Shown here piece by piece: positions 5,004 through 28,171 of a DNA stretch of 64,000 bases. Under the pieces are notes generated by a model. That model was not told where the DNA came from. It did no database searches and saw nothing but the letters and a program-made list of their open reading frames with translations. This DNA is from a virus. The stretch spans positions 1 through 64,000 of the IMG/VR virus record IMGVR_UViG_3300010885_020868; one strand, given 5' to 3'. How positions within the stretch are numbered: position 1 is the stretch's first letter; each line of letters starts with the position of its first letter. A program made the translations under genes and the position numbers.

Positions 5004-5005
5004 AA

Positions 5006-5014: not shown

Positions 5015-5020
5015 AATATT

Positions 5021-6529: not shown

Positions 6530-6543
6530 TAAAAGGAGACATA

Positions 6544-7795: not shown

Positions 7796-7801
7796 ACCTA
7801 C

Positions 7802-7831
7802 TTGTATTCTAGTATTGTTTAGTGATACAAT
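7802..7831 (+). promoter_or_regulatory. promoter for the LamG-like gene
   Basis: TTGTAT (7802-7807), 18 bp, then TACAAT (7826-7831) preceded by TGA (extended -10). The ATG at 7840 lies 8 nt past the -10 box, so the transcript is leaderless or has only 1-2 leading bases. This geometry supports ATG 7840 over the GTG at 7822, which lies inside the promoter. Confidence 0.6.
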
Positions 7832-7839
7832 TAATTCAA

Positions 7840-9651: not shown

Positions 9652-9676
9652 TATTGTCAGGCACAATGACACAGTA

Positions 9677-9705
9677 TGGACTTTGATTCAAAGTAATGGT
9701 AGAAT
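9677..9705 (+). promoter_or_regulatory. probable promoter upstream of the head genes
   Basis: TGGACT (9677-9682), 17 bp, TAGAAT (9700-9705) with TGG before the -10 box. ATG 9714 is 8 nt downstream. An inverted repeat ACTTTG-ATT-CAAAGT (9680-9694) sits inside the spacer and could be an operator, although 6-bp arms can occur by chance. Confidence 0.5.
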
Positions 9706-9713
9706 AATGATCT

Positions 9714-10058
9714 ATGGATATTAATAATGTAAACTCAAAAATTCTAGAAGAGGAGTCCACTCTTGGAATTTATGTCTGGGAAATGCCAGATGGAAGGTGG
9801 ATAGGCGATGACGAAGGAAACTACCTCTCAGTCACTTCCAAAAAAGGAAATGTTGACCGCATGGATGCCATTACTAGAGAAGTACGCACGTTTGGTATAT
9901 ATGAGGGCAGGCCTTTATTCCTTTCAGCAAGAAGAAAAATTGATGACGAAGAATTTGAATATCAAAACCAAAGACTTAAATGGGGACTAGTTCCAGATCC
10001 GCTTGATATTGGAAACTATAAAGATGAAGTTAAAAAGTATGGTAATTTAAGGGGATAA
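9714..10058 (+). CDS. hypothetical protein preceding portal
   Basis: A 114-aa protein, rich in acidic residues and aromatic turns (YVWEMPDGRWIGDDEGNYLS, RTFGIYEGRPLFLSARR, KWGLVPDPLDIGNY). I recognise no domain. It lies 2 bases before the portal gene and shares the promoter at 9677, so a head-related role is likely. The ATG at 9714 is supported by the -10 box 8 nt upstream. Confidence 0.65.
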   Translation: MDINNVNSKILEEESTLGIYVWEMPDGRWIGDDEGNYLSVTSKKGNVDRMDAITREVRTFGIYEGRPLFLSARRKIDDEEFEYQNQRLKWGLVPDPLDIGNYKDEVKKYGNLRG

Positions 10059-10060
10059 AG

Positions 10061-11647
10061 ATGGAATTTATTGAAGAAGAAAATGAGGCAGGAGAACAAA
10101 TTCAGCTATCTAATGTTGCTGATTGGTTCTCATTTAATAAGTCTACAGAAGTTACAAGTAACGATCCTTTTACTATAGACCTAGATGGAATTAAAAAGCT
10201 TAATGGATTAAGTCCAGCATTTCGACGTAAAGTAGGGCGTGAGTTTACAAAATCATTTACAGGAATTGAAGAAACTGGAACACAGCAAAATCTTCTAGCA
10301 CAGGCAATTACTGGCTACGCTATGTTTGATTTAATTGAACCAACATATAACCTAGAGTATCTATCTCAAATCTATGAGACATCTACATATAACTACGCAG
10401 CGATTAATGCTAAGGTTTCAAATATTGTTGGACTAGGATATGATTTTATTGAAACTAAGAAAACAAATGACGCCTTTGATTCTATTTCAGATGATAGACA
10501 ATTAGAACGGGCACGAAAGAAGATTAGTAAATTAAGACAGGATCTACAAGGATGGCTTGACCAAACAAATGATGAAGACACCTTTACTCAAACTTTAATT
10601 AAGGTGTATACAGACTATGAAGCTACAGGAAATGGTTTCCTAGAAATTGGCAGAACAACTGCTGGAGACATTGGCTATATTGGGCATATCCCAGCAAAGA
10701 CTATGCGTATCCGTAGACTGCGTGATGGCTTTATTCAATTGCTTTATGGCAAGGCTGTATACTTTAGAAACTTTGAAGATATGGATACCCCAAGTCCAAT
10801 TACTTCTCAAGAGGATCGCCCAAATGAGGTTATTCATTTTAAGAAATATACCCCTATGAATAATTATTATGGTATCCCAGATATTATTGCTTCACAAATG
10901 GCATTGGCTGGAAATGAATATTCAGGTAGATATAACCTAGATTATTTCCAAAATAAAGCGGTACCAAGATATATTATTACAGTAAAGGGAGCAAAGCTTT
11001 CTCCTGAATCAGAACGTAAATTACTTGAATTTTTCCAGGTTGGACTAAAGGGTAAAAATCACAGATCCCTATATGTTCCGCTTCCTGCTGATACTCCAGA
11101 TTCAAAAGTTGAATTTAAAATGGAGCCAATTGAAGCTGGTAATCAAGAAGGCTCATTTGAGAAGTATCGTAAATCTAATAGAGATGAAATTCTATTGGCT
11201 CACCGTGTACCAATTAATAAAATTGGAACTCCAGAAGGAGTTAATTTAGCGGTAGCCAGAGATGCCGATAAAACATTTAAAGAGCAGGTTTGCCGACCAG
11301 CTCAAATGATTTTAGAAAAGAAATTAAATAGAATATTCTCTGAAAAGACAGATGCCCTACAACTTAAATTTAATGAATTAACTTTGACCGACGAAGATAC
11401 TCAGTCTAAAATTGATGAGCGTTATTTAAGAATGCAGGTAATTACCCCTAATGAAGTTAGACTTAGAAAGGGCATGATTCCTCTAGAAGGCGGAGACAAA
11501 GTAATTGAATTAAAGCCACAACAGGCAGCAGATCAACAGGCTAAATCTACTGGAAATAAAACTAGAGATCAACAAAGATCTGCAACTTCCCCAGATAAAT
11601 CTGGTGAGGCTAGAAATCCAAAGGGCGATGGCGCCCAAGTTGACTAA
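10061..11647 (+). CDS. portal protein
   Basis: A 528-aa protein, the usual size for siphovirus portals. The middle section shows portal landmarks: YNYAAINAKVSNIVGLGYDF, TDYEATGNGFLEIGR, then YIGHIPAKTMRIRR and VIHFKKYTPMNNYYGIPD, as in PBSX-type and related phage portals. Late residues EILLAHRVPINKIG and LNRIFSEK are also typical. The C-terminus (QQAADQQAKSTGNKTRDQQR) is disordered. It forms the dodecameric DNA gate at one capsid vertex and docks terminase. The RBS AAGGGGA is good. The protease and capsid genes follow directly, as expected. Confidence 0.88.
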   Translation: MEFIEEENEAGEQIQLSNVADWFSFNKSTEVTSNDPFTIDLDGIKKLNGLSPAFRRKVGREFTKSFTGIEETGTQQNLLAQAITGYAMFDLIEPTYNLEYLSQIYETSTYNYAAINAKVSNIVGLGYDFIETKKTNDAFDSISDDRQLERARKKISKLRQDLQGWLDQTNDEDTFTQTLIKVYTDYEATGNGFLEIGRTTAGDIGYIGHIPAKTMRIRRLRDGFIQLLYGKAVYFRNFEDMDTPSPITSQEDRPNEVIHFKKYTPMNNYYGIPDIIASQMALAGNEYSGRYNLDYFQNKAVPRYIITVKGAKLSPESERKLLEFFQVGLKGKNHRSLYVPLPADTPDSKVEFKMEPIEAGNQEGSFEKYRKSNRDEILLAHRVPINKIGTPEGVNLAVARDADKTFKEQVCRPAQMILEKKLNRIFSEKTDALQLKFNELTLTDEDTQSKIDERYLRMQVITPNEVRLRKGMIPLEGGDKVIELKPQQAADQQAKSTGNKTRDQQRSATSPDKSGEARNPKGDGAQVD

Positions 11648-11664
11648 GACCACTCAACTACTAT

Positions 11665-11693
11665 TTGCCTTTTTATCGACAAAAAGATAAAAT
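11665..11693 (+). promoter_or_regulatory. promoter of protease and capsid genes
   Basis: TTGCCT (11665-11670), 17 bp, TAAAAT (11688-11693), then ATG 11701 after 7 nt. The TTGCCTTT -35 element is shared with the tail-tube promoter at 17306. The position makes ATG 11701 the probable start and excludes the TTG at 11665, which is itself the -35 box. Confidence 0.65.
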
Positions 11694-11700
11694 TGAACAT

Positions 11701-13026
11701 ATGAATATCGAGAAATCACATTGGTCTAGTGAGGGTGAAAACCTTCACTTATCAGTTCCATTCACAAAGGTAAACCGAGAGAAAAGAACAGTCTCTGGTT
11801 TTGCTACATTGGATAATGTAGATCAGACAGGCGATGTTGTAACTGCCGAAGCTAGCATTAAGGCATTTGAAAATTTTAGAGGCAACCTCCGTGAAATGCA
11901 TCAAGCAGTTGCAGTGGGCAAAGTTGTTTCATTTAAGCCAGAAACTTATTATGATCAGGCTACTAAGAAATTTTATAATGGAGTTTATGTAACTTCATAC
12001 ATATCAAAGGGAGCACAGGATACTTGGGAAAAAGTTCTTGACGGGACCCTTGCTGGTTTTTCAATCGGTGGAAAGATTAAAGATTCAGATAATGAAGTTA
12101 ACAAAGCAACAGGAAAATCAGTTCGTTTTATTAAAGACTATGACCTAGTTGAACTATCAATTGTTGATTCTCCAGCAAATGAATTATGTAATATTTTTTC
12201 AATTGAAAAAGTTAATGGCGCAATGGTTTATAAAGGTATTGCTGCAGAAATGAATACAGAAAATATTTTTTATTGTGAAGATAGTAATTCAGTTTTTATG
12301 TCAACTGAAAAAACATTTGACTCTCCAGTATCTGGAAAGCCAGCAGTTTTAATTGGTTGGGTAGAAACTGCAGATGTAAATAAAGCGAAAGAAGTAGAAA
12401 AGATTCTTGATTCATTTAGATCAAGATTTACGTTGCCTGAAACACAAACAATTGCAAAACAGGCAAACGCAGAAGGAGGTAATGAAGTGTCAGAAAATAT
12501 AGAAAACGTAGTTGCAGAAGATGCAGTAGCACCAGAAGCAATCGTAGAAGAAACACCAGTTGCTGCTGAAGAAGCACCAGCTGTTGAAGAAGCTCCTGCA
12601 GAAGATGCAGTAGCAGACGCTTCTGCTGAATCTCTGGAAAAGGCAGCCAATGTATCAGAAGTTATGGTTGATGAACCTGATTTTGCAAAAATGTTAGGTG
12701 ATTTAAAAGGCTTTTTCTCAGAAACTCTATTCAAGGCGTCAGAAACAAATGCTGCACAGGTAACTGCTATCAAAGATACAGTAGAATCTTTCAGCAAGAG
12801 TGTTGATACTAGAATTTCAGAGTTGGCAGAACAACATACAGCACTATCAGCTGCTGTAAATGAAATCAAGGGCACCATTGATGGTGTTCAAAAGCGTGTA
12901 GATGCTGTTGAAGGCGAAACCGCAATTAAGAAGTCTTCAGATCTTGGCGGATCTGAAGTTGTAACAAAATCAAAATCAAAATGGAACGGTTCTTTCCTCG
13001 GTTCCGTAAATGAAATATTTAACTAA
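11701..13026 (+). CDS. prohead protease (S78/HK97 type) fused to scaffold-like region
   Basis: A 441-aa protein from ATG 11701. Residues 1-170 are an S78-family prohead protease: VSGFATLDNVDQTGDVV near the start, catalytic His67 (REMHQAV), nucleophile Ser121 (AGFSIGG) and the following YDLVELSIVDSPAN strand. After residue 260 comes a long acidic Ala/Glu/Val-rich stretch, then a predicted helical region (FFSETLFKA, VESFSKSVDTRISELAEQ), which resembles a scaffolding domain. The protease would cleave scaffold and capsid subunits during maturation. A one-polypeptide protease plus scaffold just before the capsid gene is a known arrangement. The basic tail (KSKSKWNGSFLGSVNEIF) may be a self-cleavage product. 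Confidence 0.85.
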   Translation: MNIEKSHWSSEGENLHLSVPFTKVNREKRTVSGFATLDNVDQTGDVVTAEASIKAFENFRGNLREMHQAVAVGKVVSFKPETYYDQATKKFYNGVYVTSYISKGAQDTWEKVLDGTLAGFSIGGKIKDSDNEVNKATGKSVRFIKDYDLVELSIVDSPANELCNIFSIEKVNGAMVYKGIAAEMNTENIFYCEDSNSVFMSTEKTFDSPVSGKPAVLIGWVETADVNKAKEVEKILDSFRSRFTLPETQTIAKQANAEGGNEVSENIENVVAEDAVAPEAIVEETPVAAEEAPAVEEAPAEDAVADASAESLEKAANVSEVMVDEPDFAKMLGDLKGFFSETLFKASETNAAQVTAIKDTVESFSKSVDTRISELAEQHTALSAAVNEIKGTIDGVQKRVDAVEGETAIKKSSDLGGSEVVTKSKSKWNGSFLGSVNEIFN

Positions 13027-13041
13027 GGTAGGTAAAAAATA

Positions 13042-14088
13042 ATGAGCAATGAACTATTAAAAGATATTGCAGCTGGCGCAGTAGCGACAGCAGGATTCGC
13101 TTCCACTTCAGGTGGAACAGGAATTCACACCGCTTCCGAAAACGGCAACGGTGGTTTACTTAACCCAGAACAATCAGCTCGCTTCCTAGACTATATGTTC
13201 GACGCAACCGTAATTGGTAAGGTCGCACGTACAGTACGCATGAAGGCAGATACAACCGAGATTGATCGTATTGGTGTTGGCGAGAAGCTTATGAAGCTCG
13301 CTACAGAAGGTTCAGATACCGCAACAAACGGTGCTGTAACATTCTCAAAGATTTCTTTGACAACAAAGAAACTTCGCATGGATTGGGAACTTTCAACTGA
13401 GTCTCTAGAAGACAACATTGAAGGTCCAGATCTAGAAGATCATATTGCACGTATGATGGCAACACAAGCTGGTAATGACATTGAAGACGTAGTTCTTAAT
13501 GGTAATACCGCATTGTCATCAGACGCACTTTACAAGTCATTCAATGGTATTGTAAAGAAGGCTAAGACCTATGGTAATGTTGTAGATGCAGGTGGAGCAG
13601 CCGTTTCTCGTGCTGTATTCAACTCAGCTCTTAAGGCACTTCCACGTAAGTACAAGCAACGTCGTACAGACCTTCGCTTCCTTGCTGGTTCAAACCTGGT
13701 CCAAGACTTCCTATATAACAACAGCATTGGAACAAACCAAACAATTCCACAGGATATTGCTTCAAGCATAATCCGTGGTGAGGTTGCCCCACTAGGCGGA
13801 CCTGCAGGATACGTAGCTCCTTACGCATTTGGTATTCCAATTGTTGAAGTTCCGCTACTTCCAGAGACACAGACTGGCGACTACTCAGGCGCAACTGGTT
13901 CACACGGAGATATCCACTTGACATTCCCAAATAACGTTGTTATTGGTATCAAGCGTGATGTAACTGTATATCGTTTCTTCTGGCCACGTAAAGACTCAAT
14001 CGAATATACAATGTATACTCGCGTTGGTGTCCAAATCGAACAAGCAAATGCTTGGGTTGTAGTAAAGAACGTTAAGGTTGCTTCTTAA
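13042..14088 (+). CDS. major capsid protein (HK97 fold)
   Basis: A 348-aa protein with landmarks of HK97-fold capsids: LLNPEQSARFLDYMFDATV at the start, KLRMDWELSTESLEDN in the middle (the long spine helix follows), IARMMATQAGNDIEDVVLNG, and C-terminal VVIGIKRDVTVYRFFWPRKD. It forms the icosahedral shell. All 16 arginine codons are CGT or CGC, unlike the AGA-rich neighbouring genes, a sign of selection for high expression. A strong intrinsic terminator follows at 14104. Position after the protease supports the call. Confidence 0.9.
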   Translation: MSNELLKDIAAGAVATAGFASTSGGTGIHTASENGNGGLLNPEQSARFLDYMFDATVIGKVARTVRMKADTTEIDRIGVGEKLMKLATEGSDTATNGAVTFSKISLTTKKLRMDWELSTESLEDNIEGPDLEDHIARMMATQAGNDIEDVVLNGNTALSSDALYKSFNGIVKKAKTYGNVVDAGGAAVSRAVFNSALKALPRKYKQRRTDLRFLAGSNLVQDFLYNNSIGTNQTIPQDIASSIIRGEVAPLGGPAGYVAPYAFGIPIVEVPLLPETQTGDYSGATGSHGDIHLTFPNNVVIGIKRDVTVYRFFWPRKDSIEYTMYTRVGVQIEQANAWVVVKNVKVAS

Positions 14089-14103
14089 TTAGAACAGCTA
14101 TAG

Positions 14104-14134
14104 AAAGGCCCCCGATTAATTTCGGGGGCTTTTC
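14104..14134 (+). terminator. intrinsic terminator after major capsid gene
   Basis: Stem GCCCCCGA (14108-14115) / TCGGGGGC (14122-14129) with a 6-nt loop, followed by TTTTC. It is a strong GC-rich hairpin in AT-rich DNA, isolating the capsid transcript. Confidence 0.92.
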
Positions 14135-14149
14135 ATTTTAATTTACTAA

Positions 14150-14158
14150 TGCTATAAT
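14150..14158 (+). promoter_or_regulatory. extended -10 promoter for connector genes
   Basis: TGCTATAAT (14150-14158), a TGn-extended -10 box directly after the capsid terminator. The -35 region overlaps the terminator T-tract (TTTTCA) and is poor. The gene at 14186 follows with RBS TAAGGAG, so this transcript has a leader. Confidence 0.65.
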
Positions 14159-14185
14159 AAACATACCTAGACTAAGGAGATTACC

Positions 14186-14590
14186 ATGTCATTCGAGACA
14201 TTAAAAGTTGCAGAATTAAGAAAAGTTGCAGAAGATTTTGCCGTAGACACAGACGGCTTAAAGAATAAAAATGATATTATTGCGGCATTATCAGAAGAAG
14301 GCGTGACCTGGGCTGTATATGCTAAGACGCTTAAGGATATTGAAAAGGCGGAAGAAGAAGATATTTCTGATGAGATACTTCCTAAGTTTGATCCAAAGAA
14401 GGATCAGGCAGAGGACACGGTACTTGTTAGAATGACTAGAGCTAATTTCAGATACGATATTTTAGGACATACCTTTACAAAGGATCATCCTTTTATTGCT
14501 ATGAATGAAAAAGATGCTCAATCAATTTTTGACAAGGAGGAAGGTTTTAGATTAGCTACCCCAAAAGAGGTTCAAGAGTTTTATAACTAA
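14186..14590 (+). CDS. small head-associated protein with SAP-like N-terminus
   Basis: A 134-aa protein. Residues 3-32 (TLKVAELRKVAEDFAVDTDG, then LKNKNDIIAAL) match the helix-turn-helix layout of SAP/Rho-N-like modules, which in phage head proteins often mark capsid-associated or DNA-contacting small proteins. The remainder includes an acidic segment and a compact domain (VLVRMTRANFRYDILGHTFT...HPFIAMNEKDAQSIF) like those of head fibre or decoration proteins. It is the first gene of the connector operon. RBS TAAGGAGA. Function is not proven. Confidence 0.7.
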   Translation: MSFETLKVAELRKVAEDFAVDTDGLKNKNDIIAALSEEGVTWAVYAKTLKDIEKAEEEDISDEILPKFDPKKDQAEDTVLVRMTRANFRYDILGHTFTKDHPFIAMNEKDAQSIFDKEEGFRLATPKEVQEFYN

Positions 14591-14605
14591 TCATTACCAA
14601 ATATA

Positions 14606-15592
14606 ATGGCTGAAGTTTATACAGAAAGTAGTACCCCCGTTAAAACTAAGATTTTTTACGGAGGAGAGGTAGTAGACGCAGACGGAGCTGTTTCTGTAAC
14701 TATTTATGATGTTACAGAAGATCCAGCAATTGTTCCTTCGCTGAATCCCACCACCTCACTTGCTGTATTAACAGCAACTAAGTTAGACAATGATTTTGGA
14801 ACATATCAAATTATTCTTCCAAGGACATATACAACCAGACAAAGAAAATTTAAATTTGTCTGGAGTTACCTTATAAATTCAGTTGCTCATTATTATACAA
14901 CTTACACAGATGTAGTTACCCCATATGCTAATTTAGCAGAAGTCTATGAAGACTTAAATATTGGAACAGATCCTAGCGATCCAAATTACAAGACGTATCA
15001 TGAATTAAGAATGGCAGAAAAGTACGGAAGAAAGATAATTGAAAATTATTGTAATCAGCAATTTTCTGTATATGATGATGTTCAAGTTGCATATGGAGCT
15101 GGAACAGATATTCTTCCACTGCCCTTTAAGTTGCTACAGATACATGAGATATACGCAAACGATATCTTGCTAATAGATAATGTTAACTCAATTAATAATT
15201 GGAATTATCATCCAGTAATATCAGAGACTGGATTTGGAGTTAGAGTGGACAGAACTTATGATCTGGACAATACAGTTTATATTGCTAATGGCATGGTTCC
15301 TCCAACAGTAAATGATTTAAATTATGGCGGAGCATTTCAAAAAAATGTAAGATATAAAATTCAGGGTAAATTTGGCTGGGATAAAGTTCCAGATAATGTT
15401 GAAGAAGCCTGTATTGTTTTAATGAAAGATTACTTCTCTAAAGATCAGCGCTGGAAAGAAAAATATATTAAAAACGTACAAGCATTTGACTGGAAGTTTG
15501 AATATACTGGCGATGCCTATAAGGGTACAGGTAATCTATATGCCGACCAATTATTAAACCCATATGTAGTAAATGGTATGGTTGTAATCTAA
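14606..15592 (+). CDS. head-tail connector protein (adaptor)
   Basis: A 328-aa protein. An N-terminal beta domain (PVKTKIFYGGEVVDADGAVSV) precedes a helical adaptor-like part (YEDLNIGTDPSDPNYKTYHE, then AEKYGRKIIENYCNQQFSVY) that is the usual signature of gp6/gp15-type connectors in actinophages. The C-terminal region (KVPDNVEEACIVLMKDYFSK) is also typical. It would bind below the portal. The stop overlaps the next start by one base (TAATG). The order after the capsid gene supports the role. Confidence 0.75.
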   Translation: MAEVYTESSTPVKTKIFYGGEVVDADGAVSVTIYDVTEDPAIVPSLNPTTSLAVLTATKLDNDFGTYQIILPRTYTTRQRKFKFVWSYLINSVAHYYTTYTDVVTPYANLAEVYEDLNIGTDPSDPNYKTYHELRMAEKYGRKIIENYCNQQFSVYDDVQVAYGAGTDILPLPFKLLQIHEIYANDILLIDNVNSINNWNYHPVISETGFGVRVDRTYDLDNTVYIANGMVPPTVNDLNYGGAFQKNVRYKIQGKFGWDKVPDNVEEACIVLMKDYFSKDQRWKEKYIKNVQAFDWKFEYTGDAYKGTGNLYADQLLNPYVVNGMVVI

Positions 15593-16020
15593 TGAATGAT
15601 TTAATTTATCCAATGCTCTATATGAAAATGGATGTATATAGGCAAGTAGATTCTCAAGATGCATCTACTGGAGCAATTAAGAAAGAATGGAATTTTTACG
15701 AGACTATTCCATGTAGCGCTAAAGGAACTATTACTAATTCTTCTACATCAAGAGGCGGAGACAAAGAAGTATACTCTACTAAATATGCTTATAATCAATT
15801 CATAGATGTTAGAACTTTAAGAAAATTAAACTCAAGAGAAAAAATAACCAATATCTCAAATCAAGCAGGAGAAGTTATTTGGGAAGAACTAAATTATCCC
15901 ACTAGCACTCCGACAGTATTTGAAGTAACAGGAACAACTCCAATCACCGACCCGTTTGGCAGTATCCTAGGATATAACTCAACTCTTAAGAGATCGGAAA
16001 ATCAACAAATTGGCATCTAG
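15592..16020 (+). CDS. head closure / head-tail joining protein
   Basis: A 142-aa protein, starting at the TAATG overlap. It is beta-rich with features of head-completion proteins (LYMKMDVYRQVDSQDASTGA, EWNFYETIPCSAKG, TKYAYNQFIDVRTLRKLNSR). It lies between an adaptor-like gene and the neck-like gene 16010. No enzymatic motif. The assignment rests on gene order and size. Confidence 0.6.
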   Translation: MNDLIYPMLYMKMDVYRQVDSQDASTGAIKKEWNFYETIPCSAKGTITNSSTSRGGDKEVYSTKYAYNQFIDVRTLRKLNSREKITNISNQAGEVIWEELNYPTSTPTVFEVTGTTPITDPFGSILGYNSTLKRSENQQIGI

Positions 16021-16795
16021 CCAATTGCTAGTCCAGGCTGCTAGCGGCCTAGAAAAATTAATGGTCGGTAGCGGAAACGGTGCTCTTAAAGATAGTACAG
16101 TCGCTCAAATATCAGCAGCAATATATTATCAGGCAAATGTCTTATCACAGGTAACAACAAATAATGGATTTGAAGCTTTGTTTGCTAAAACACTCTTTAA
16201 TCAAATAAACAAAGATTTTGGATTATATATAGATGCTCAGGCAAGAATGAAACCAAAGGCTTTGCACCATGTTTACGAATGGGATGATACTGGAAATTCA
16301 ACAAAAAGACTTTTTAGACTAAGTAAAAAAATGTCTAATGGATTAAGTTTTCAAATTGGATATAAATTTATTTTATCTAAAACGGCTCCATTAAAAACAA
16401 GAAATCAAAAAAGATATGTATTTAAAAATAAAGCCTCTATCATGGAACAAGGAATACCCGTTATAATCACTCCAAGGACCCCTGGAGGCCGCTTAGTGTT
16501 TGAGTACATGGGAGAACCTATGTTTATGCCAAAGGGGGCTTCAGTGACCGTACAACGCCCTGGAGGACGTGCAGCAACTCATCAATTTAAATTACATTAT
16601 GCTAAATTTTTTACAGGAGATTTAGTTAATCTATCAATTAAAAAATCGGGATTCCAAAGAATATTTAATGATAGAATAGCTAGAGCAATGGGATTACCTT
16701 TAAATATTAGAAAGGTTAAATATTCATTCTCGCCAAATGCGGTAAGGATGCAATCTTTGTCAGCAGTACAGGCAGCATTTGGAGGAATACTATGA
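16010..16795 (+). CDS. neck / minor head-tail protein
   Basis: A 261-aa protein with no recognised motif beyond a basic, beta-rich core (RLSKKMSNGLSFQIGYKFIL, TPRTPGGRLVFEYMGEPMFM, VTVQRPGGRAATHQFKLHYA). A TTG at 16010 overlaps the previous gene by 11 bases; an in-frame ATG at 16061 is the alternative and would shorten it by 17 residues. Its place, between head closure and tail terminator genes, is that of an HK97 gp10-like protein. The call is by position. Confidence 0.6.
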   Translation: MASSQLLVQAASGLEKLMVGSGNGALKDSTVAQISAAIYYQANVLSQVTTNNGFEALFAKTLFNQINKDFGLYIDAQARMKPKALHHVYEWDDTGNSTKRLFRLSKKMSNGLSFQIGYKFILSKTAPLKTRNQKRYVFKNKASIMEQGIPVIITPRTPGGRLVFEYMGEPMFMPKGASVTVQRPGGRAATHQFKLHYAKFFTGDLVNLSIKKSGFQRIFNDRIARAMGLPLNIRKVKYSFSPNAVRMQSLSAVQAAFGGIL

Positions 16796-18225: not shown

Positions 18226-18558
18226 TTGGCAACCACAGTATACGATGTAGAAGAAATTACATTACAAAATGGCGCAGTAGTCAAACTAAAGCCGCTCACA
18301 ATTAAAGAGCTAAGAAAGTTCATGGCGGCAATTCAAAAAACCGCAACGGCAGAAACAGAAGATGAGACTCTAACAATTCTAATTGATGCTTGTGCAGTAG
18401 CACTAGAAAAGCAACTGCCAGAATTAACTAAAGATAGAGACGCATTTGAAGATGTTTTGGACGTTCCAACAATCAACCGCATTCTTGAAATTTGCGGAGG
18501 TATTAAGATGGACGACCCAAACCTTCTAGCGGCAGCGGTTCTGGCTGGTCAGAACTAG
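18226..18558 (+). CDS. tail assembly chaperone, short form (gpG-like)
   Basis: A 110-aa protein starting at TTG 18226, placed by RBS AGGAGG at 18213. The sequence (VVKLKPLTIKELRKFMAAIQ, IDACAVALEKQLPEL, LDVPTINRILEICGGIKMDD) is that of tail assembly chaperones of siphoviruses, which bind the tape measure protein during tail building. It lies between the tail tube and tape measure genes, and the end overlaps a second frame that continues to 18884 through a -1 shift at 18516. Confidence 0.85.
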   Translation: MATTVYDVEEITLQNGAVVKLKPLTIKELRKFMAAIQKTATAETEDETLTILIDACAVALEKQLPELTKDRDAFEDVLDVPTINRILEICGGIKMDDPNLLAAAVLAGQN

Positions 18559-18884
18559 ATTTAGCCGCATTAGAAGGGGAAGTTTTTCTTTTAGGTAATT
18601 GGAAAAATTACGAAGAACTAGAAGATAATCTTTCAATGCCAGAACTAGTACAAACTTTTAAAGCAATGCAAAAAACTGAAGAAGATAAACGTAGATTTTT
18701 AGCTTCAATACAAGGCATTGATTTAAATGAAAATAAAGAAGAAGAAGGCACAACCTTCGATGATATACAAAGAAAAGCACTCGGAATAGAAGCAAGTGGA
18801 GACGATGTAGTTTCACTACAAGGAACATTTGCGGCACAAGCTGGATTTGGTATCGGAGCAGGATTGGGTTATTCTAAGGAGTAA
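18226..18884 (+). CDS. tail assembly chaperone, frameshift fusion (gpGT-like)
   Basis: The product of joining 18226-18522 with 18522-18884 by a -1 shift: 99 residues of the short form plus 120 residues of the second frame, 219 aa in total. After the shift comes a short linker (PSSGSGSGWSELDLAALEG), then FLLGNWKNYEELEDNLSMPE and VQTFKAMQKTEEDKRRFLAS, typical of the GT extension which contacts the tape measure protein and tail tube. The ATG at 18636 is internal and lacks an RBS, so separate translation is less likely. In lambda-like phages the long form is made at a few percent of the short form. Confidence 0.82.
18516..18522 (+). promoter_or_regulatory. -1 ribosomal frameshift slippery site CCCAAAC
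   Basis: The heptamer CCCAAAC is in the exact phase C-CCA-AAC with respect to the chaperone frame (codons CCA 18517-18519 and AAC 18520-18522), the canonical X-XXY-YYZ form. The -1 frame is open from 18507 to the stop at 18884, while the 0 frame ends at 18558, so a slip here yields the fused product. Confidence 0.85.
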
Positions 18885-18889
18885 TATAG

Positions 18890-21800
18890 ATGGCTGATGA
18901 GCAGATAGTAACTAATATAGTTGCTCGTTCTGATTTCTCAGGTTTGATTGCAGATGTGCAACGAACCACGGCAGCGCTGGCTAAATTACAACAAGAATTA
19001 TCCATAACAAATAAAACATTAGCAGCACAAGCTGGCCAGATTCAAAAGTCGTTTTCCGAGACACTTAGAAGCACTGGCCAGTTTTCTTCCCATTTTGTAA
19101 CAGTAGGTTCACAAGTAGAAAGTTTTGGAAGAAGTTTAGATGGCGGAAAGTTAAAGTTAAAAGATTATTTTAGAACATGGCAAGAGCACACAAGGACTTC
19201 AGGCGGATTAATCAGAGACCTTGCTAGACAGCAAGTATCACTTCAAAATGCTATTGTACAGCCATTAGGTAGAACAGCTGATGGCTTAATGAAGTTTAAT
19301 GTACAGGTTCCAAAGGGCTTAGACGCAGTAGCTAATAAAACAGCAATAGCTAAAAAAGAATTGCAAATTTATAACAAAGTTATTCAGGACGGCGGAGTTC
19401 AATTAATTAACTGGGGTAAGAATACTCAGTGGGCAGGTCGTCAGTTAACAGTTGGATTAACCGTTCCACTGGCAGCATTTGGAATGGCGGCAGCTAAAGC
19501 ATTTAGAGAAGCCGATCAAGAGCTTGTAAGACTAACAAAGGTTTACGGTGGAGTTGCAGCTACAAGTGCTGTTGATTTAGCAAATGTAAGAAAAGATGTT
19601 TCTCAGACTGCTAGAGAATTAGCTGCGGCCTATGGCTCTTCATTTAAAGATACAATTTCTTTAGCTGCTGACATTGCCGCAACAGGGAAAACTGGTAATG
19701 AACTTTTAGTATCAACAAAAGAAACAACTAGATTAGCAGTACTTGGTGAAGTTGATAGACAAGATGCGATGAAAGCAACTTTAGCATTACAAAATGCTTT
19801 TAAACAGAGCACCACAGAGTTATCAGAATCAATTAACTTTCTTAACGCAGTTGAAAACCAAACATCAACAAGTCTTGGAGATTTAATTGAGGCAATTCCT
19901 AAAGCTGGTCCAGTAGTTCAAAGTTTGGGCGGAGACGTAAAAGACTTAGCACTTTATCTTACAGCAATGAAAGAAGGCGGAATTAATGCATCAGAAGGTG
20001 CAAATGCTTTAAAGTCTGCTTTAGCTTCTATGATTAATCCAACTAAAGTTGCTAGAGAAATGTTTTCTGGCCTTGGTATTGACTTAGGCGGAATTGTAAC
20101 ACAAAATGCGGGAAATTTAACAGCAACAATTACAGCGCTACAATCTTCTTTAGATAAACTAAATCCTCTACAAAAGTCACAGGCTATCGAACAGCTATTT
20201 GGTAAGTTTCAGTTTGCAAGATTATCAGCACTTTTTGAAAACTTAGGTAAAGAAGGATCCCAGACTCTTCAAGTCATGGATTTAATGAAAGCAAGTAGTG
20301 CTGATTTAGCAAATGTAGCAGGCCGAGAATTATCACAGATTACTGAATCTGCTTCTGGTAAATATCAAAGAGCTCTTCAAACATTAAAGGCAGATTTAGC
20401 TGGAGTTGGAGAGTCTTTCTTAAATGTTCAAACATTCTTTTTAAATCTAACAAGCTCAGTAGTTAAGTTTATTGAAATGCTTCCTGGTCCAGTTAAATCA
20501 ATGCTTACATTGGTAGCAGGAATTACTGCCTTGGCTGGACCAATCATTATGTTAACTGGCGTGTTTGCTAACTTCATTGGTTATGTTATTAAAGGCATTG
20601 GCCACCTCAAAGCTTTATTTAGGGGCGGAGAAGGCTTTAAATTATTAACCCCAGAAATATTAGCAGCAAGTAAAGCTGGAAGTTTAGTAGAAAAAACATT
20701 CTATAGCGATGCAGCAGCAGCAGACATTCTAAGTGCTTCTCTTAAAAACTTAATTACAGAATTTACTATATTACAACAAAAGGCTGCTTCTGGAGCCATA
20801 TCAGTTCAACCGACAATTGCTACTCTAGCAGGAACTGTTGCGATGGCGGGAACTCCAGGAGGGATGTATAAAGGTGTAACTGTAGATCCAAACAACCCTC
20901 TTGTAGGCAGAATGGGAACAAGAGCAAGTGCTCATATGAATCCTGTTGGAAATATGACAGAAGCAGAAAGAGCAGCACAAACAATATTTGGCATGGTTCC
21001 AGGACCAATTCCAGTTAATAGAAAAATTGGAAGAAATCCTCAGATGTATGCCGATCATGGATTGCCAGCAATTCCTGGACTTACTACAATTGGCGGAGTA
21101 TCAACAGGAGTAATTCCAGAAGAAGCAGCTAAATGGCATGCAATGACTGGTGCTATAGCAATGCAATCAGAAGCAGAAATTGCTCTATTAAAGAAAGAAG
21201 TTGCCGCAACTGGCACTGTAACACATGAACTTTCTGGTTCATATCAAGCACTTCTTCCAGAAATAACAAGGTTAACAAAGTTGGCAGCTCAAGAAGGTGC
21301 GGCAATTGTTGCACAAACACAAGCTGGAGCAATTACAGTAGAGCAAGCTAGAGCAAAAATTGTAGCATTAAATGCTAGAGTAGAGGCAATGATTGCAGAA
21401 ACAACTACACAAATTGCAATTACACAAGGTAGAACTGCAAATCTAACAATGGTTCCATTTACAAATCAGCCAGTAGTTGATCCAAAAACTGGCAAGTCAA
21501 ATATGAAAGAGATGTTCCATAAAACTCCTACTGCGACATTAGTGGATAATGTTGCTAGAGCATTAGGCGGAATTAGAACTTCGGGCGGCGGCTTTAGTAC
21601 AGAGACTACAATAAGACGTAATCAGGGCGGACCAATTTATCGTAATCAGGGTGGACCAATTTATTATAATGATGGTTCTAGATCAGTAGTTCCAGGACCA
21701 AATGTAAACGCAGATGTTGTTCCAGCAATGCTTACTCCAGGAGAGTTTGTTGTAAATAAAAAAGCAACACAAGCAAATCTGGGACTACTTCAATCTATTA

Positions 21801-24800
21801 ACAGTGGTAAATTAGGAGGATCTGTATCTTCTTCTCAAGGTGGATACGGAGTAAGGCCATCTGCATTAGATATATCAAGAATGTTTAACGGATTATTTTC
21901 AAAAGCAAAAAGTCGCTCTACTGTAAAGGTAAGAGGCAATGCTCTGCCTAGACATTTTTGGTCAACAGCAACAGGACAAGATACTAATTCAAGAAGAATG
22001 GATTTGGTAGAAAGTCTTAATGCTGGCAGACCAATTAGAAATAGAAAAGGTAAAGATTACACTGAAGAGGAATTGAGACTACTTCCAAAAGAAGAGGTTA
22101 ATACTATATGGAAAGGAATAGATAGAAGCCACTTTGCACCAGCTGCAACAATTGGTCGGGACGGACAATATATTTCTCCAGGCTTGTTTGGTCCACAAAA
22201 AAGAGGTGGAGCTGGAGGCAATCTTTCTCTAAACCAGGGTGGGAATCCACAAGATATTTTAAATTCTTTAATGGATACACCAATACATCCATTTTCAACA
22301 ATGAGATCAGCATCTAGATTGTTAGGGTATCCTTCTAAAGATATTAACGCTTCTTTTAATGCCGCATGGCTAGAATTAACAGCAGCACTAAAAATTAGAA
22401 CTACCGCGTTTGGCAAAGATCAGGATACCTTTGAAGAATTTGCTGGAAAAATATTAAAAAAACATTTAAAACATCTTAAAGTTCCTGATACAAGCATTAA
22501 TTTTTATGATGAAATGCACAGACTGGGAACGGTAAGAGGAGCTGGAATAAAAGGATCTGGAGCATCAGTTGTTGCAAATGATCCAGATATAACTTTTAAT
22601 ATTCCACAAAGAAGAATGGGTGGTCCAGTATCTGGAGCATCTCCATACATAGTTGGAGAAAACGGCCCAGAACTTTTTGTACCACAAAATAGTGGAAAGA
22701 TAATTCCAGGATTTAATAAAGGCGGACAGATACAAAACTTTGCTAAGGGCGGCGAAGTGATGGCTATGCTAATGAGAATGATCCCAGGACTTGCTGGTTA
22801 CGGAATTGGATCAAAATTAACTGGCGGATCAATGATGGGCGGAATGCTTGGAAGTTTAGGCGGAGATTTAATAGGAACTGCACTAGCTGGAAAGATTTTA
22901 AAATTAGGCGAAGCAGCAACAAAAACTGGCAAGAGCGTATCTCTGCTTCAAAAGGGTTTACAATTTTTAAAAGCTAAGCCAGTATTTGGATGGACAGCAG
23001 CAGTATTAGCTGGAGCAGCAATAATAAAATCTGTAAATGATAAGATAAATGAACATAGAAGAGTAATAAATCTAGCATTTGCACAAAATTCCGAAACGGC
23101 TTCTAAGCTAGGAATTAATTATAAGTCGTTAAATGAACAATTAAAAGATTTTAAAGACAAGATGGATTTAGCAAGAGCATCTGCAAACGCATTTTATAAT
23201 TCAACAACAATGACTAATGGATTAAAATTAACAATTCAACAATTCCAAGAGCTTAAAGAATCTGTTAAAAAAGATCTTCCAGACCTTATTTCAGTATTTG
23301 ATAAAGCTGGAGGAAACGAGGTAGTTCAAAAAGCATCTCAATTAAAGGCGCAATTTATTTCTGGTGGAATGAGTGCAGAAAAGGCAACCAGTGTAATATA
23401 TGCACTAATTGCAAATTCAAATAAAGCATACCTATCTCTTCAGGTTTTAGCAGACCAAGGATTTGGATCAATTATTGATAAAAGCACCGCAGCAATATCT
23501 AGTGTTGAAACTTTTAATGCTTTATTAAATGAAGGAAATACAGACCAGCTTGCCCCAGCTTTTCAATCATTAATAACCAGTGTGCAGGAAATGGAAAAGT
23601 CTTTAATTGGAACTGAAGACGAAACTGGAAAAATTATTACTGCTTCTAGGGCATGGGAAATTACAATGCAAAAAATTACTGCAGCCCAAGGCAGTTCTGC
23701 CTCACTAACATCTTTTCAATATTCTGAATTACAAAAAACAGTTCCAGAGCTATATAAAATATTAAACGGTACGGAAAGCACAGCAGCAGTTTTAGCAAAA
23801 TGGAAAGTTTATATTTCTGGCGCTAGAGTTGAATTAAAGGGAATGACAGAAGATGCGGCTATTGCATTGGCAGCAGCTCAAACAAATCTTGTAGGAATAC
23901 TATCTGGCGGAAAAACTGGAACTGATATAGACAAGATAGTAGATGCAATAAATAGAGCTAATAAAGCATCTTTAACTAATAAGACATTAATTCAAAAAAA
24001 TGCTGTAAGCGCACAAGATGCCCTTAAAGCAGAAATTGAATTGCATCAAGATAATATTGATAAAATTAAAGAAGAGGCAGATGCTAGAAGAAAATCTTTA
24101 TCTAGACAATCAGAAGATGAAGACATTCTTACTCAGATAAAGAAAAAGCAACTAGAATATCAAGATGCTTTAGCCATGGGAGATTCGGCAACAGCCGCTC
24201 AAGCACAATTAGATTTACAAATGCTACAAAGAGGACAGGAAAAAACTTTAGCCTTAAGAGCAATTGATGATAAAGAAAAGGCAGATACAGCAGCTCAGCA
24301 ATCTATCATTGATAGTCTACAAAAAAAGCTAGATGGTACTTCAAAAACTCTTCAGACACAATTAGATAATGCAGATAAAGCCTTATCTAAAGTTACTGAT
24401 CTTCAAAATTTTCTTAATGAGGTAGTATCTTTTATTTCTTCATCTGGAACTATAGATACCGACGACGAACTGAAGGCAGCAAACTTACTTCAAAAGAAAG
24501 GAGAGGATCTAGGGCTAAAAGATATTAAGCTAGGAGCAATAAAACAAGATCCAGCAGCAGCGCTGTTTGCATCAAAATTTGGAACAGGAATGGCAAGTCT
24601 TGGATTCCCTACATATAATCCTTATGCTGCAGGAACAGATATCATATTACAAAAAGTAATCAAAGAAGGTAGATTATCGGTAGAAGATAAAAATTCTTTA
24701 TCAAATAATAATCTGCTTAAAGGCATATTGTCAGCAGTATCTACAAACAGAAATCAAATTGCTCCAATTGATTTAGGACAAACTGGCTCTGGTCAATACG

Positions 24801-27800
24801 CACAAAACTTTATCACAGCTAAAGTTTTAGCAAAATATGGTATTAGCCCAAATACAAAAACTGGTTCATACTTAAATGAAACTATTCAAGTTGGAGGACA
24901 AAGCTATCAAATATCAGGATTTGATAAAGCGTCTGGCAGATACAGCTTAAGAAAGCTTGCAATGGGCGGACCAATTAAACATTATGAACCAGGCGGAAAT
25001 GTAAGAGGACCAGGAACTGGAATATCTGATTCTATTCCCGCCATGCTTTCAAATGGTGAATATGTAATTAAGGCGAACTCTGTAAAGAAATACGGAACAG
25101 AAACATTTGATGCACTAAATGCTGGAAAGTTTGCAGATGGTGCATTAATAGGATATCACAAAGGTGGACCAGTAGGACATAAGCATGGTCCTGCTGAAGC
25201 TGCTCGTCTTAAAGAACTTAGACTTGCAAAGCCAAGCGCTGTACAAAGTCCAAAAAAATGGTATGCAGGGTTTCAAGCCCTAACTAAAAGGGAAAATTGG
25301 GGCTTTGGTAAAACTCATGGAGTAGTTGATTTGCCGTATGATGCATATAAAAATATTATATTCCCTACAGTAGCATGGGCAGATAGAATGGTTGGAGATA
25401 CTATTGGTGGTGCTTTAAATATTAAATCTCCTCTAATAACTTCTACTAATAGAAATGCTCGTGCTCAAATGTCTAACAAAGACATCGCAATTCAGCAAGC
25501 AGTTGATTTATTAGGAATTCTTCCATACGGAAAAATTGTCTCTAAGCTATCTACTGCTGGAATGAGTAAAGCAACAATTGCAAAAATTGCGGAAGAAAAA
25601 TTAACATCTAAAGCAGCAACTGCAGCCTATAGAGCATCTGTAAAACCTGTTCCACTGCCATACAAAGCTTTAAATACCTTTAATCAATATGCTAACTACT
25701 TTAAAGCTAAAAAATTAGTTAAAGAAAAACAATATCATGGATCATCAGATCGCGGCAATAGTTTTGACAGACCACTTTATGGAGAAAGCGTATTAGACGG
25801 AACTCCTGCATACGATCCACATTATGGAATGGGATTTTATTCCACTTCTAGTAAAGCGGAAGCAGATTTATATGCAGGTGGATATAATGTTCCTGGTCAA
25901 TGGGGAGAGTCATATGGTTCTATGAACCAAGTCACCAGGATACCATTTGGCAAGTATATTGACTATCGAAAATCAAATATTAAATCTCAAAACTATTTAT
26001 TGTGGAAATTATTACAGGGTAAAGACTACAGATATGCTGGAGAAGATTTAGGTTCATTAATGAATCAAGCAGGAACTACTGGGTCTATTATGAAAAGAAT
26101 TTCTAATGGAAGAACTGGCGATGCCACAATAGACAAAGCTACTTGGCTTGCATTAAATAAGCCAAAAGGAACAACTTTACAAGAAACGGGATTAGGATTT
26201 AGCCCATCTAATTTAGGATTTCAGGAAAGTGGATTTACATATAATAATTGGAGCACAAAAACAGTACAAGAATTTTTAAGAAAAAATCTTGGAAAAACTG
26301 GTTTAACACAAGATAGATCTATTATTAATGAGGTTCTAAGTAAAACACCTATAAGAAAAGTTCCTAAAACAACTTTAGAAGACCTACACGCACTTGGAGC
26401 AACTACATACACTTCTACAGGTAATCATATTAGCTTACCTTCTAAAACAACTTTTGGAACAACTATACATGAAGGTGCACATGCATTAGATGCTTTTACA
26501 GGAACAAGCGTACGTAGATTTATAGGCGAAGTTGGAAGAACAAAGTCAAAAGTTGACGCAGACAGATTATCAAGACTATGGATATCATCTCAAACAACTT
26601 TGAATCCACTCCATACTTTTATTAATAAAGTTCAAGGTGCAAGACTACACCCAAATCTTTTAACTGGTATTCAAGAAGCTACAGCAACCGACGCACACTC
26701 CTTTGCTTATAAAAATGCTGGATTTAATTTAATAAAAAAACTTCGCATAGGAAATCCATATACTGCTGGCCAAGGGTACATTGAAAGTTTTGAACAACTT
26801 CTTCAATATTCACATGGCGTACAAAGTATGCAAGGTAAGATAGATCTTGCAAATGGACTTCTTACTTCAGAAAGAATGTCATCTTCTCTTAGAAAACAAA
26901 TGCAGCAATGGGTAAGACGTTTAGAAAATGAAAAAGCTTCAGGAATGTCTTATCCAGGATTTGAAGAATTTGGCAAGCCAGGAAATATCGGAAGAATTGA
27001 ATCATTACGACCTAATACATCTTCATCTCCTAATGCTAATAGTATGTTTACTCCACCTGAGTTAAGAACTGTAGAAGATTACATTGGAAGACCTCGTACC
27101 TACGCAGACAGCATGGCTCATGTTCTAGATAGATTTAATTTTGGAGATCAGGCTGGTACATTTTTTAGAGGGTTAAGCATGCATGATATGGCTGCAATTG
27201 CAGGATATACAAGAGTACCAAATCCTAATTTAATATACGGTAGAGATTATATGGAAAAGTGGGGGCCGACTAGTTGGGGTGGATTTGCAGATGATACAGC
27301 CGAAGCTCCTTGGGCACATTTGGCACGAAGCTGGAAGCCAGAAGCAGCAAGCGTATTCCCTAGAGGCACAAGGTCTCCATTACCATCTACAGAAGAGGCA
27401 ATGCCTTATTTAAATATGTTACCAGGATTAAAAATTGGTGAATACTGGAGACCAGATACATTAAAATCAATAACTGCAGAACTTGAATTTGCAAAACATA
27501 TAGCTGTTAGTGGTGGTACTGGTGGTGGTGAAACAAAAGCTATTGCAAAAATAATCGTTGATCCTAAAGTAAAAGGAGTAGGTGATTTTGCAAAATTTAG
27601 TCCTCCTAAACCAAAGCCAAATTGGATGGGAACTGAGTTTACAGAAGGTGCAATAGCTCCATTTACTAAATATATATTGCAGGCTATTAATAAAAATGCT
27701 CATAGCCTTACAGATGAATCTAAAGGCGTATCTCATTTAATAGATGAATATGTTTTTAAGGCAGTAGAGACATCTCCATATTTAGAATTCTTAAAGCGAC

Positions 27801-28171
27801 AAATGTCGATTAAAACTGAAGGACTACTTCCTATAGTTAAAAAAGCCACTGGCGGATATGTCAATCCTTCTTATTCTCCAAGTATGTCTGTTCCTCAATT
27901 CAAAGATGGAATTAATATGGTTCCCGCCGACATGCTTGCAATGATTCATAAGAACGAAGCCATTGTTCCAGCTAACATGAACCCCTTTAATCCTAACGCA
28001 AATAATGCTACAATGGCACCAGCGGTTTATAATATATCAATGACTAATCATGCGTCGGAAGGCATGGATATAAATGCATTCTCAGATATTGCAACACGTA
28101 AGGTATTAGCAGAAATTAAGAGACTAGATGTTCAACGAGCATCTATGAATGGAATAGGGAGAAGAGTCTAA
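18890..28171 (+). CDS. tape measure protein with embedded enzyme-like domains
   Basis: A 3093-aa protein; its length sets tail length. Residues 1-700 are classical: an N-terminal coiled coil, then GLTVPLAAFGMAAAKAFREA and the PhageMin-type region, with a hydrophobic hinge at about 535-565 (SMLTLVAGITALAGPIIMLT). Two Gly-rich stretches carry the PAMLTPGEFVV / PAMLSNGEYVI motif, common in tape measure proteins. Cargo lies between such motifs: residues about 990-1240 (unrecognised), and about 2100-2980. In the second, H2283 (YHGSS) with G2313-MGFYST-AEADLYAG looks ADP-ribosyltransferase-like, HEGAH at 2527-2531 is a zinc-metallopeptidase motif, and FFRG at 2758 starts another possible transferase fold. 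The last 100 residues return to tape-measure style (GINMVPADMLAMIHKNEAIV). A tape measure protein is ejected into the cell with DNA, so the cargo may act there. Confidence 0.87.
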   Translation: MADEQIVTNIVARSDFSGLIADVQRTTAALAKLQQELSITNKTLAAQAGQIQKSFSETLRSTGQFSSHFVTVGSQVESFGRSLDGGKLKLKDYFRTWQEHTRTSGGLIRDLARQQVSLQNAIVQPLGRTADGLMKFNVQVPKGLDAVANKTAIAKKELQIYNKVIQDGGVQLINWGKNTQWAGRQLTVGLTVPLAAFGMAAAKAFREADQELVRLTKVYGGVAATSAVDLANVRKDVSQTARELAAAYGSSFKDTISLAADIAATGKTGNELLVSTKETTRLAVLGEVDRQDAMKATLALQNAFKQSTTELSESINFLNAVENQTSTSLGDLIEAIPKAGPVVQSLGGDVKDLALYLTAMKEGGINASEGANALKSALASMINPTKVAREMFSGLGIDLGGIVTQNAGNLTATITALQSSLDKLNPLQKSQAIEQLFGKFQFARLSALFENLGKEGSQTLQVMDLMKASSADLANVAGRELSQITESASGKYQRALQTLKADLAGVGESFLNVQTFFLNLTSSVVKFIEMLPGPVKSMLTLVAGITALAGPIIMLTGVFANFIGYVIKGIGHLKALFRGGEGFKLLTPEILAASKAGSLVEKTFYSDAAAADILSASLKNLITEFTILQQKAASGAISVQPTIATLAGTVAMAGTPGGMYKGVTVDPNNPLVGRMGTRASAHMNPVGNMTEAERAAQTIFGMVPGPIPVNRKIGRNPQMYADHGLPAIPGLTTIGGVSTGVIPEEAAKWHAMTGAIAMQSEAEIALLKKEVAATGTVTHELSGSYQALLPEITRLTKLAAQEGAAIVAQTQAGAITVEQARAKIVALNARVEAMIAETTTQIAITQGRTANLTMVPFTNQPVVDPKTGKSNMKEMFHKTPTATLVDNVARALGGIRTSGGGFSTETTIRRNQGGPIYRNQGGPIYYNDGSRSVVPGPNVNADVVPAMLTPGEFVVNKKATQANLGLLQSINSGKLGGSVSSSQGGYGVRPSALDISRMFNGLFSKAKSRSTVKVRGNALPRHFWSTATGQDTNSRRMDLVESLNAGRPIRNRKGKDYTEEELRLLPKEEVNTIWKGIDRSHFAPAATIGRDGQYISPGLFGPQKRGGAGGNLSLNQGGNPQDILNSLMDTPIHPFSTMRSASRLLGYPSKDINASFNAAWLELTAALKIRTTAFGKDQDTFEEFAGKILKKHLKHLKVPDTSINFYDEMHRLGTVRGAGIKGSGASVVANDPDITFNIPQRRMGGPVSGASPYIVGENGPELFVPQNSGKIIPGFNKGGQIQNFAKGGEVMAMLMRMIPGLAGYGIGSKLTGGSMMGGMLGSLGGDLIGTALAGKILKLGEAATKTGKSVSLLQKGLQFLKAKPVFGWTAAVLAGAAIIKSVNDKINEHRRVINLAFAQNSETASKLGINYKSLNEQLKDFKDKMDLARASANAFYNSTTMTNGLKLTIQQFQELKESVKKDLPDLISVFDKAGGNEVVQKASQLKAQFISGGMSAEKATSVIYALIANSNKAYLSLQVLADQGFGSIIDKSTAAISSVETFNALLNEGNTDQLAPAFQSLITSVQEMEKSLIGTEDETGKIITASRAWEITMQKITAAQGSSASLTSFQYSELQKTVPELYKILNGTESTAAVLAKWKVYISGARVELKGMTEDAAIALAAAQTNLVGILSGGKTGTDIDKIVDAINRANKASLTNKTLIQKNAVSAQDALKAEIELHQDNIDKIKEEADARRKSLSRQSEDEDILTQIKKKQLEYQDALAMGDSATAAQAQLDLQMLQRGQEKTLALRAIDDKEKADTAAQQSIIDSLQKKLDGTSKTLQTQLDNADKALSKVTDLQNFLNEVVSFISSSGTIDTDDELKAANLLQKKGEDLGLKDIKLGAIKQDPAAALFASKFGTGMASLGFPTYNPYAAGTDIILQKVIKEGRLSVEDKNSLSNNNLLKGILSAVSTNRNQIAPIDLGQTGSGQYAQNFITAKVLAKYGISPNTKTGSYLNETIQVGGQSYQISGFDKASGRYSLRKLAMGGPIKHYEPGGNVRGPGTGISDSIPAMLSNGEYVIKANSVKKYGTETFDALNAGKFADGALIGYHKGGPVGHKHGPAEAARLKELRLAKPSAVQSPKKWYAGFQALTKRENWGFGKTHGVVDLPYDAYKNIIFPTVAWADRMVGDTIGGALNIKSPLITSTNRNARAQMSNKDIAIQQAVDLLGILPYGKIVSKLSTAGMSKATIAKIAEEKLTSKAATAAYRASVKPVPLPYKALNTFNQYANYFKAKKLVKEKQYHGSSDRGNSFDRPLYGESVLDGTPAYDPHYGMGFYSTSSKAEADLYAGGYNVPGQWGESYGSMNQVTRIPFGKYIDYRKSNIKSQNYLLWKLLQGKDYRYAGEDLGSLMNQAGTTGSIMKRISNGRTGDATIDKATWLALNKPKGTTLQETGLGFSPSNLGFQESGFTYNNWSTKTVQEFLRKNLGKTGLTQDRSIINEVLSKTPIRKVPKTTLEDLHALGATTYTSTGNHISLPSKTTFGTTIHEGAHALDAFTGTSVRRFIGEVGRTKSKVDADRLSRLWISSQTTLNPLHTFINKVQGARLHPNLLTGIQEATATDAHSFAYKNAGFNLIKKLRIGNPYTAGQGYIESFEQLLQYSHGVQSMQGKIDLANGLLTSERMSSSLRKQMQQWVRRLENEKASGMSYPGFEEFGKPGNIGRIESLRPNTSSSPNANSMFTPPELRTVEDYIGRPRTYADSMAHVLDRFNFGDQAGTFFRGLSMHDMAAIAGYTRVPNPNLIYGRDYMEKWGPTSWGGFADDTAEAPWAHLARSWKPEAASVFPRGTRSPLPSTEEAMPYLNMLPGLKIGEYWRPDTLKSITAELEFAKHIAVSGGTGGGETKAIAKIIVDPKVKGVGDFAKFSPPKPKPNWMGTEFTEGAIAPFTKYILQAINKNAHSLTDESKGVSHLIDEYVFKAVETSPYLEFLKRQMSIKTEGLLPIVKKATGGYVNPSYSPSMSVPQFKDGINMVPADMLAMIHKNEAIVPANMNPFNPNANNATMAPAVYNISMTNHASEGMDINAFSDIATRKVLAEIKRLDVQRASMNGIGRRV
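21617..21664 (+). repeat. 24-bp tandem duplication in tape measure gene
   Basis: Two adjacent copies of a 24-base unit starting CGTAATCAGGG (21617-21640 and 21641-21664), with one C/T difference. It encodes RNQGGPIY twice and sits at the left edge of the first cargo region. Confidence 0.85.

Follow-up and report, generated by a model that had tools for sequence, protein, structure and literature searches.

Injected phage effectors have so far come mostly from heads, as in T4 Alt, MuF fusions, and polyvalent proteins. T4 Alt is a phage ADP-ribosyltransferase (ART) that is injected and modifies the host's RNA polymerase as infection begins (PMC5512222). In polyvalent proteins, a single virion-associated chain unites multiple enzyme domains that are unrelated to each other, with H-Y clade ARTs beside zincin-like metallopeptidases, and their delivery with the DNA has been predicted (PMC5512222). 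In the MuF-VIP2 proteins of Microbacterium phages Percival and Goodman, an ART is fused to a virion protein, and one phage has the ART while a close relative lacks it (PMC7302621). Tme, from the contractile injection systems of Streptomyces davawensis, is related to tape measure proteins (TMPs), and its C-terminal domain is an active endonuclease (PMC11126660). The term "tape measure" is absent from both PMC5512222 and a 2022 NAD-ADPr survey (PMC9503650). A search of the open-access literature returned no report of ARTs inside TMPs, which is not proof of absence.

Here we analyze a 64,000-nucleotide stretch of DNA (the window) contained in a 66,675-base IMG/VR virus record with a GC content of 35%. 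In our reading, to which we give a probability of about two in three, the C-terminal part of the TMP encoded in the window is a cargo slot, filled here by three modules, effectors that would be ejected with the TMP and modify the host. The TMP is the largest open reading frame (ORF) of the window, ORFs of the tail region come after it, and profile searches place it in both PhageMin_Tail and phrog_10030. Two short ORFs (18226-18558 and 18636-18884) directly precede it, where tail assembly chaperones sit. The parts of the TMP outside the three modules are as follows.

18890..28171, + strand: TMP carrying the cargo, 3,093 aa, an uninterrupted ORF (PhageMin_Tail, E 4.6e-28; phrog_10030, E 3e-122)
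18890..21799, + strand: conserved TMP backbone, residues 1-970, with 55-91% identity across about 20 IMG/VR relatives
21842..22609, + strand: variable zone 1, residues 985-1240, in which relative L013 is unrelated though the flanks on both sides match
25004..25159, + strand: anchor motif RGPGTGISDSIPAMLSNGEYVIKANSVKKYG and linker, residues 2039-2090, the slot entrance, recurring in both loaded and empty relatives
25157..25654, + strand: pre-ART segment, residues 2090-2255, weakly hydrophobic at 2199-2217 (a hydropathy of 1.23 across these 19 residues)
27845..28168, + strand: conserved TMP C-terminal tail (VPADMLAMIHKNEAIVPANMNPFNPNA...), residues 2986-3093, the slot exit, with 88% identity in L002/L013

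Because the head protein and TMP N-terminus of the window are nearest to those of Streptomyces, Gordonia, and Rhodococcus phages, the host of the window phage is likely actinobacterial. The backbone identities were obtained from a single scan (about 20 relatives); a second scan returned at least 584 relatives, 80 of which were kept. Full-length TMPs among the relatives read, designated here by L numbers, range from 1,774 to 4,268 aa. Segments related to variable zone 1 are present in many other TMPs. The domain at about residues 1050-1200, in this second variable zone besides the slot, recurs in many relatives and has no confident Pfam match. A genome scan with the TMP N-terminus yielded a single relative with 44% identity, L095 (contig CAINGU010000031.1, from a cyanobacterial MAG). 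The L095 TMP has 142 aa past the anchor and no large cargo, and the contig, binned as a cyanobacterium, is possibly misbinned. In L015 the TMP is read as two overlapping ORFs in different frames (4668-10037 and 10001-16507), which could stem from a frameshift or faulty assembly, unless this TMP is genuinely encoded by two genes.

The slot lies between the anchor, with the pattern GPGTxxSDSIP..GEYVIK, and the C-terminal tail, which in relatives also stands behind different cargo. Among 32 distinct anchored related TMPs, half (16) have 96-142 aa past the anchor, and the other 16 have 333-1,660 aa. The slot is loaded in some relatives and empty in others, and its modules are swapped. The first-pass annotation, which placed two enzyme-like segments inside the TMP, had not seen that the same slot in related TMPs is empty or holds other modules. 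The comparison with L013 illustrates this swapping: the two TMPs share 94% identity over residues 1-960 and about 88% in the final 106 residues, and the ART of the window's module 1 is the sole content common to both slots. The pre-ART segment, which has a close relative in L001 only, is possibly a leader.

The window's slot carries, in this order, an H-Y-type ART and two candidates, one for a zincin and one for an R-S-E ART; the third module (residues 2701-2985) was missed at first pass. IMG/VR scans revealed the module 1-type ART in ten further contigs, with identities from 88-91% down to 44-46%, and 11 of 11 contigs (window included) carry it within the TMP. Its placement varies, being first in the window and last in L004 and L005, and in L124, L181, and L185 it is the only module read in the slot. 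Further ART-like segments can be recognized by eye in the slots of relatives, and unrelated HEXXH modules occur in other slots. Motifs of the form HGDxHPGN...DWG, such as HGDMHPGN...DWG, or YSDAHGGN...DFG are found in the slots of L020, L021, L031, L109, and L010; in the first three of these, ABC1/APH kinase-like matches have an E of about 1e-3 and score below the cut-off.

L020 residue 3173; L021 and L031 residue 3128; L109 residue 3364; L010 residue 3156: kinase-like slot modules, assigned from the motifs

A glycine-rich hydrophobic segment (e.g., AQGGLSGLTFGGPGGLAGVGIGLVEGLAGL) precedes effector-like modules in L002/L013, L015, L019, L160, and L174 (by eye) and could be a membrane-insertion element.

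Module 1 and its conserved residues are located as follows.

25655..26209, + strand: module 1, H-Y-type ART fold, residues 2256-2440 (AF2 pLDDT 74.5, pTM 0.75; fold matches)
25736..25738, + strand: H2283, in strand 1 (model strand 26-29), putative NAD-binding His, invariant in 8/8
25871..25873, + strand: Y2328, putative catalytic-site Tyr, invariant in 8/8
26183..26185, + strand: E2432, Glu in the last strand, invariant in 8/8

The motifs named at first pass fall exactly where it had placed them: YHGSS at 2282-2286 (25733-25747), GMGFYST at 2313-2319, AEADLYAG at 2323-2330, HEGAH at 2527-2531, and QEATATDAHS at 2595-2604, with LYAGGY starting at TMP residue 2327. The claim of an ART-like segment is borne out by the model, as the predicted fold is that of an ART, and H2283, whose substitution would have spoken against the claim, is invariant, as is Y2328. 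The alignment behind this invariance comprises eight sequences, each from a different TMP, with identity falling to 46% for the most divergent one, and it also served as input for AF2. In the model, Y2328 sits in helix 67-74, after strand 61-64; at Y2317 of GMGFY, the aligned ART segments have either Y or F.

Structural comparison of the module 1 model points to the same superfamily. Foldseek against the PDB places the diphtheria toxin catalytic domain at the top (E 2.1e-3, probability 0.95); RES toxins and Pseudomonas exotoxin A come next. BFVD contains 15 viral models that match at E <= 1e-3, of which one is a MuF fusion and several bear the name ART-PolyVal. VIA-align gives Z-scores of 6.5 for a cyanophage pre-ejectosome protein, 6.1 for NatRT, 5.8 for MbcT, 5.7 for diphtheria toxin, and 4.9 for tankyrase; scores of 5-6.5 are modest, in a range that a common arrangement can reach, and the top rows are nearly all of the ART superfamily. 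The best of these matches aligns PDB 9k3a_B residues 1419-1608, from the cyanophage A4 pre-ejectosome protein, with TMP residues 2271-2440 (window 25700-26209) and, at Z 6.5, suggests that this other ejected phage protein has an ART-like domain.

The Pfam ART-PolyVal profile (PF18760) reaches module 1 with E 0.0018 and 19.5 bits, below its gathering cut-off of 31.2 bits, and matches one of the eight family members. A PF18760 search of 23 related virus records gave no match, nor did the ART profile match any sequence in the PDB, and tblastn of the ART against 50,697 phage records returned no relative.

The acid that completes the H-Y-[EDQ] triad is expected in the fifth strand and is E148 in diphtheria toxin and E988 in PARP1. 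By a topology argument, no acid stands at the corresponding place in module 1, where the window has T2418 and relatives have T, V, K, or L; the invariant E2432 falls one strand later. Module 1 is predicted to fold as an ART with conserved H and Y, and the model is compatible with an H-Y-E enzyme with a displaced Glu, a mono-ART without Glu, or an inactive domain.

The lack of a third catalytic acid at the expected place would suit a different reading, in which the cargo would be made up of accessory domains of the TMP that work at the envelope, opening the wall or membrane or contributing to tail-tip structure, instead of cytoplasmic effectors, and the ART fold would be a catalytically dead scaffold. 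The slots of other relatives, which hold CHAP, LysM, and OmpA modules, and that of phage Yaboi, with what seem to be wall-hydrolase domains, also lend themselves to it. We nevertheless consider an envelope role unlikely, as module 1 keeps its H and Y in every aligned sequence despite divergence to 46% identity, profile search gives no wall-hydrolase match in the window's slot, and in L109 and L010 the ART is a separate unit downstream of the wall modules. Opening of the envelope, one of the uses proposed at first pass, is likewise the less likely one for the window's three modules, none of which matches a wall hydrolase.

Module 2 is the candidate zincin metallopeptidase.

26210..26989, + strand: module 2, candidate zincin, residues 2441-2700, with HEGAH and E2596 and an 85% identical copy in L001
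26468..26482, + strand: HEGAH, residues 2527-2531, kept in L001
26675..26677, + strand: E2596 of QEATATDAHS (2595-2604), candidate third zinc ligand, kept in L001

An HEXXH motif is expected by chance 0.023 times in the window TMP. In related TMPs the motif is confined to the variable C-terminal part, where four unrelated sequences have it; the only scanned relatives with it are L008 (the same module), L033, L150, and L017. About 170,000 aa of related-TMP backbone contain none; the single "backbone" instance reported by the script, at residue 2867 of L017, actually lies in cargo, the anchor of that TMP having gone unrecognized. The first-pass claim of a metallopeptidase holds at the level of the motif, in that HEGAH and E2596 are kept in the single relative, and finds no counterpart in family profiles, as Pfam, NCBIfam, and PADLOC give no match for module 2. 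tblastn of module 2 against 50,697 phage records gave matches at chance level, and AF2 on the block 2256-2990 (modules 1-3, six sequences) reached a pLDDT of 34. Since its sole known relative is the L001/L008 copy with 85% identity, a zincin assignment for module 2 is credible but unproven.

The position of the candidate zincin between both candidate ARTs raises the idea that it is a processing protease that cuts the TMP to free the flanking ART modules and not itself an effector. A processing role was proposed for the MPTase domains of polyvalent proteins by Iyer et al. 2017 (PMC5512222). Other TMPs with the module 1-type ART (L002, L004, L005, L124, L181, and L185), however, have no HEXXH in the sequences read, so release of modules cannot generally depend on the zincin, and we hold this alternative to be clearly less probable than not.

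Module 3 resembles the R-S-E branch of ARTs in its motifs.

26990..27844, + strand: module 3, candidate R-S-E-type ART, residues 2701-2985, with R-S-E motifs identical in L004
27167..27169, + strand: R2760 of FRGLS, putative R of R-S-E, kept in L001 and L004
27467..27469, + strand: S2860 of SIT, putative S of R-S-E, kept in L001 and L004
27644..27646, + strand: E2919, putative E of R-S-E, kept in L001 and L004

The R, S-x-T, and E motifs appear in the R-S-E order, and R2760-G-L, S2860-I-T2862, and E2919-G are the same in L004 despite 36% overall identity, in a comparison that comprises two distinct sequences. Profile search of module 3 gave no match to an ART profile, a PDB sequence search gave chance-like matches only, tblastn against 50,697 phage records found nothing, and a further viral scan added no new relative. 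On its motifs, module 3 is a candidate R-S-E-type ART. Weak HerA matches to GGTGGGETKAIAKI in this module (E 0.02-0.09, three libraries), together with a full GxxxxGKT at the HerA-like site in L004, would instead make it a degenerate P-loop segment and not an ART. This similarity spans just about 25-40 residues, the Walker lysine position is E in the window, and L004 retains each of the R, S-x-T, and E positions, which leaves a P-loop origin quite improbable.

The DNA of module 3 differs from its surroundings in its history. Over residues 2761-2960 it is about 99-100% identical to that of L008, while the adjoining segments are 84-93% identical, and dS is 0.047 in module 3 versus 0.22-0.33 in the preceding modules. 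Near-identical DNA and low dS relative to its neighbors indicate a recent exchange of this single module. Values of dN/dS are 0.23 for the ART, 0.38 for the zincin, and 0.10 for module 3, which points to purifying selection on all three. That some relatives have no cargo at all could be taken to mean that the slot domains are functionless, decayed insertions, tolerated since the TMP is long. With dN/dS of 0.10-0.38 in the modules, retained catalytic motifs, and an open frame in every copy read, such decay is barely credible.

TMPs occupy the tail tube and exit before the DNA. For lambda, labelling in the course of injection places the TMP at the inner membrane (PMC13190303). For the effectors that we propose, the cargo would ride in the tail tube together with the TMP, be ejected into or across the cell membrane before the DNA, and then refold. 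The refolded cargo may modify host proteins (or NAD or nucleic acids) at the start of infection, serving host takeover or the blunting of defences, and the zincin would act as a third effector or, alternatively, as a protease that processes the chain and releases the neighboring modules. On our analysis, the cargo most likely acts by modifying presumed host targets within minutes of the onset of infection, as T4 Alt does. Effector delivery would agree with the context, namely the slot, the swapping of modules, and the wall-hydrolase-like domains in the slot of a cultured relative. A counterpoint to delivery by the tail is that domains of this size, if folded, may not fit the tail tube.

On balance we lean slightly toward a wider generalization, that in widespread uncultured, probably actinobacterial siphophages the TMP is a general loading platform, with a fixed polymorphic slot and swappable ARTs, kinases, zincins, and undescribed enzymes delivered via the tail. 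Such a slot may be likened to the polymorphic C-termini of bacterial polymorphic toxins. If this is true, siphophage tails are protein-delivery devices, and how several enzymes traverse a narrow tube becomes a question; TMP length would be uncoupled from tail length in such phages, and a large set of undescribed early-infection enzymes would be assayable by domain.

Compared with the systems described at the outset, the TMP resembles polyvalent proteins (PMC5512222) in its putative array of disparate domains, with an H-Y-type ART fold beside a candidate zincin, and in the delivery proposed for them: its identity as a TMP is sure, one ART fold is supported, and two modules are candidates. It differs from them in that the carrier is a tail TMP, an R-S-E candidate lies in the same chain, and module 1 lacks an acid at the expected place. 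T4 Alt, in contrast, is a head protein in its own right and belongs to the R-S-E clade. MuF-VIP2 likewise is a head protein with a single VIP2-type domain (PMC7302621), whereas the carrier in the window belongs to the tail and bears an array of modules. Tme belongs to a bacterium's contractile injection system and not to an infecting phage, and it has one nuclease domain (PMC11126660); among TMP-type carriers whose C-terminus is an enzyme, it is the nearest precedent. A cultured relative, Streptomyces phage Yaboi, has a TMP with an N-terminus about 34% identical and enzyme domains between the anchor and the C-terminal tail. The Yaboi slot domains look, by eye, like wall hydrolases only, so that enzymes at the slot position appear to be normal, and in the window's clade the slot would have been extended to protein-modifying enzymes. 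As neither the polyvalent-protein paper nor the 2022 survey mentions TMPs, MuF-VIP2 is borne by the head, and Tme is the nearest precedent, what is new here is a polyvalent-like, polymorphic cargo borne by a siphophage TMP.
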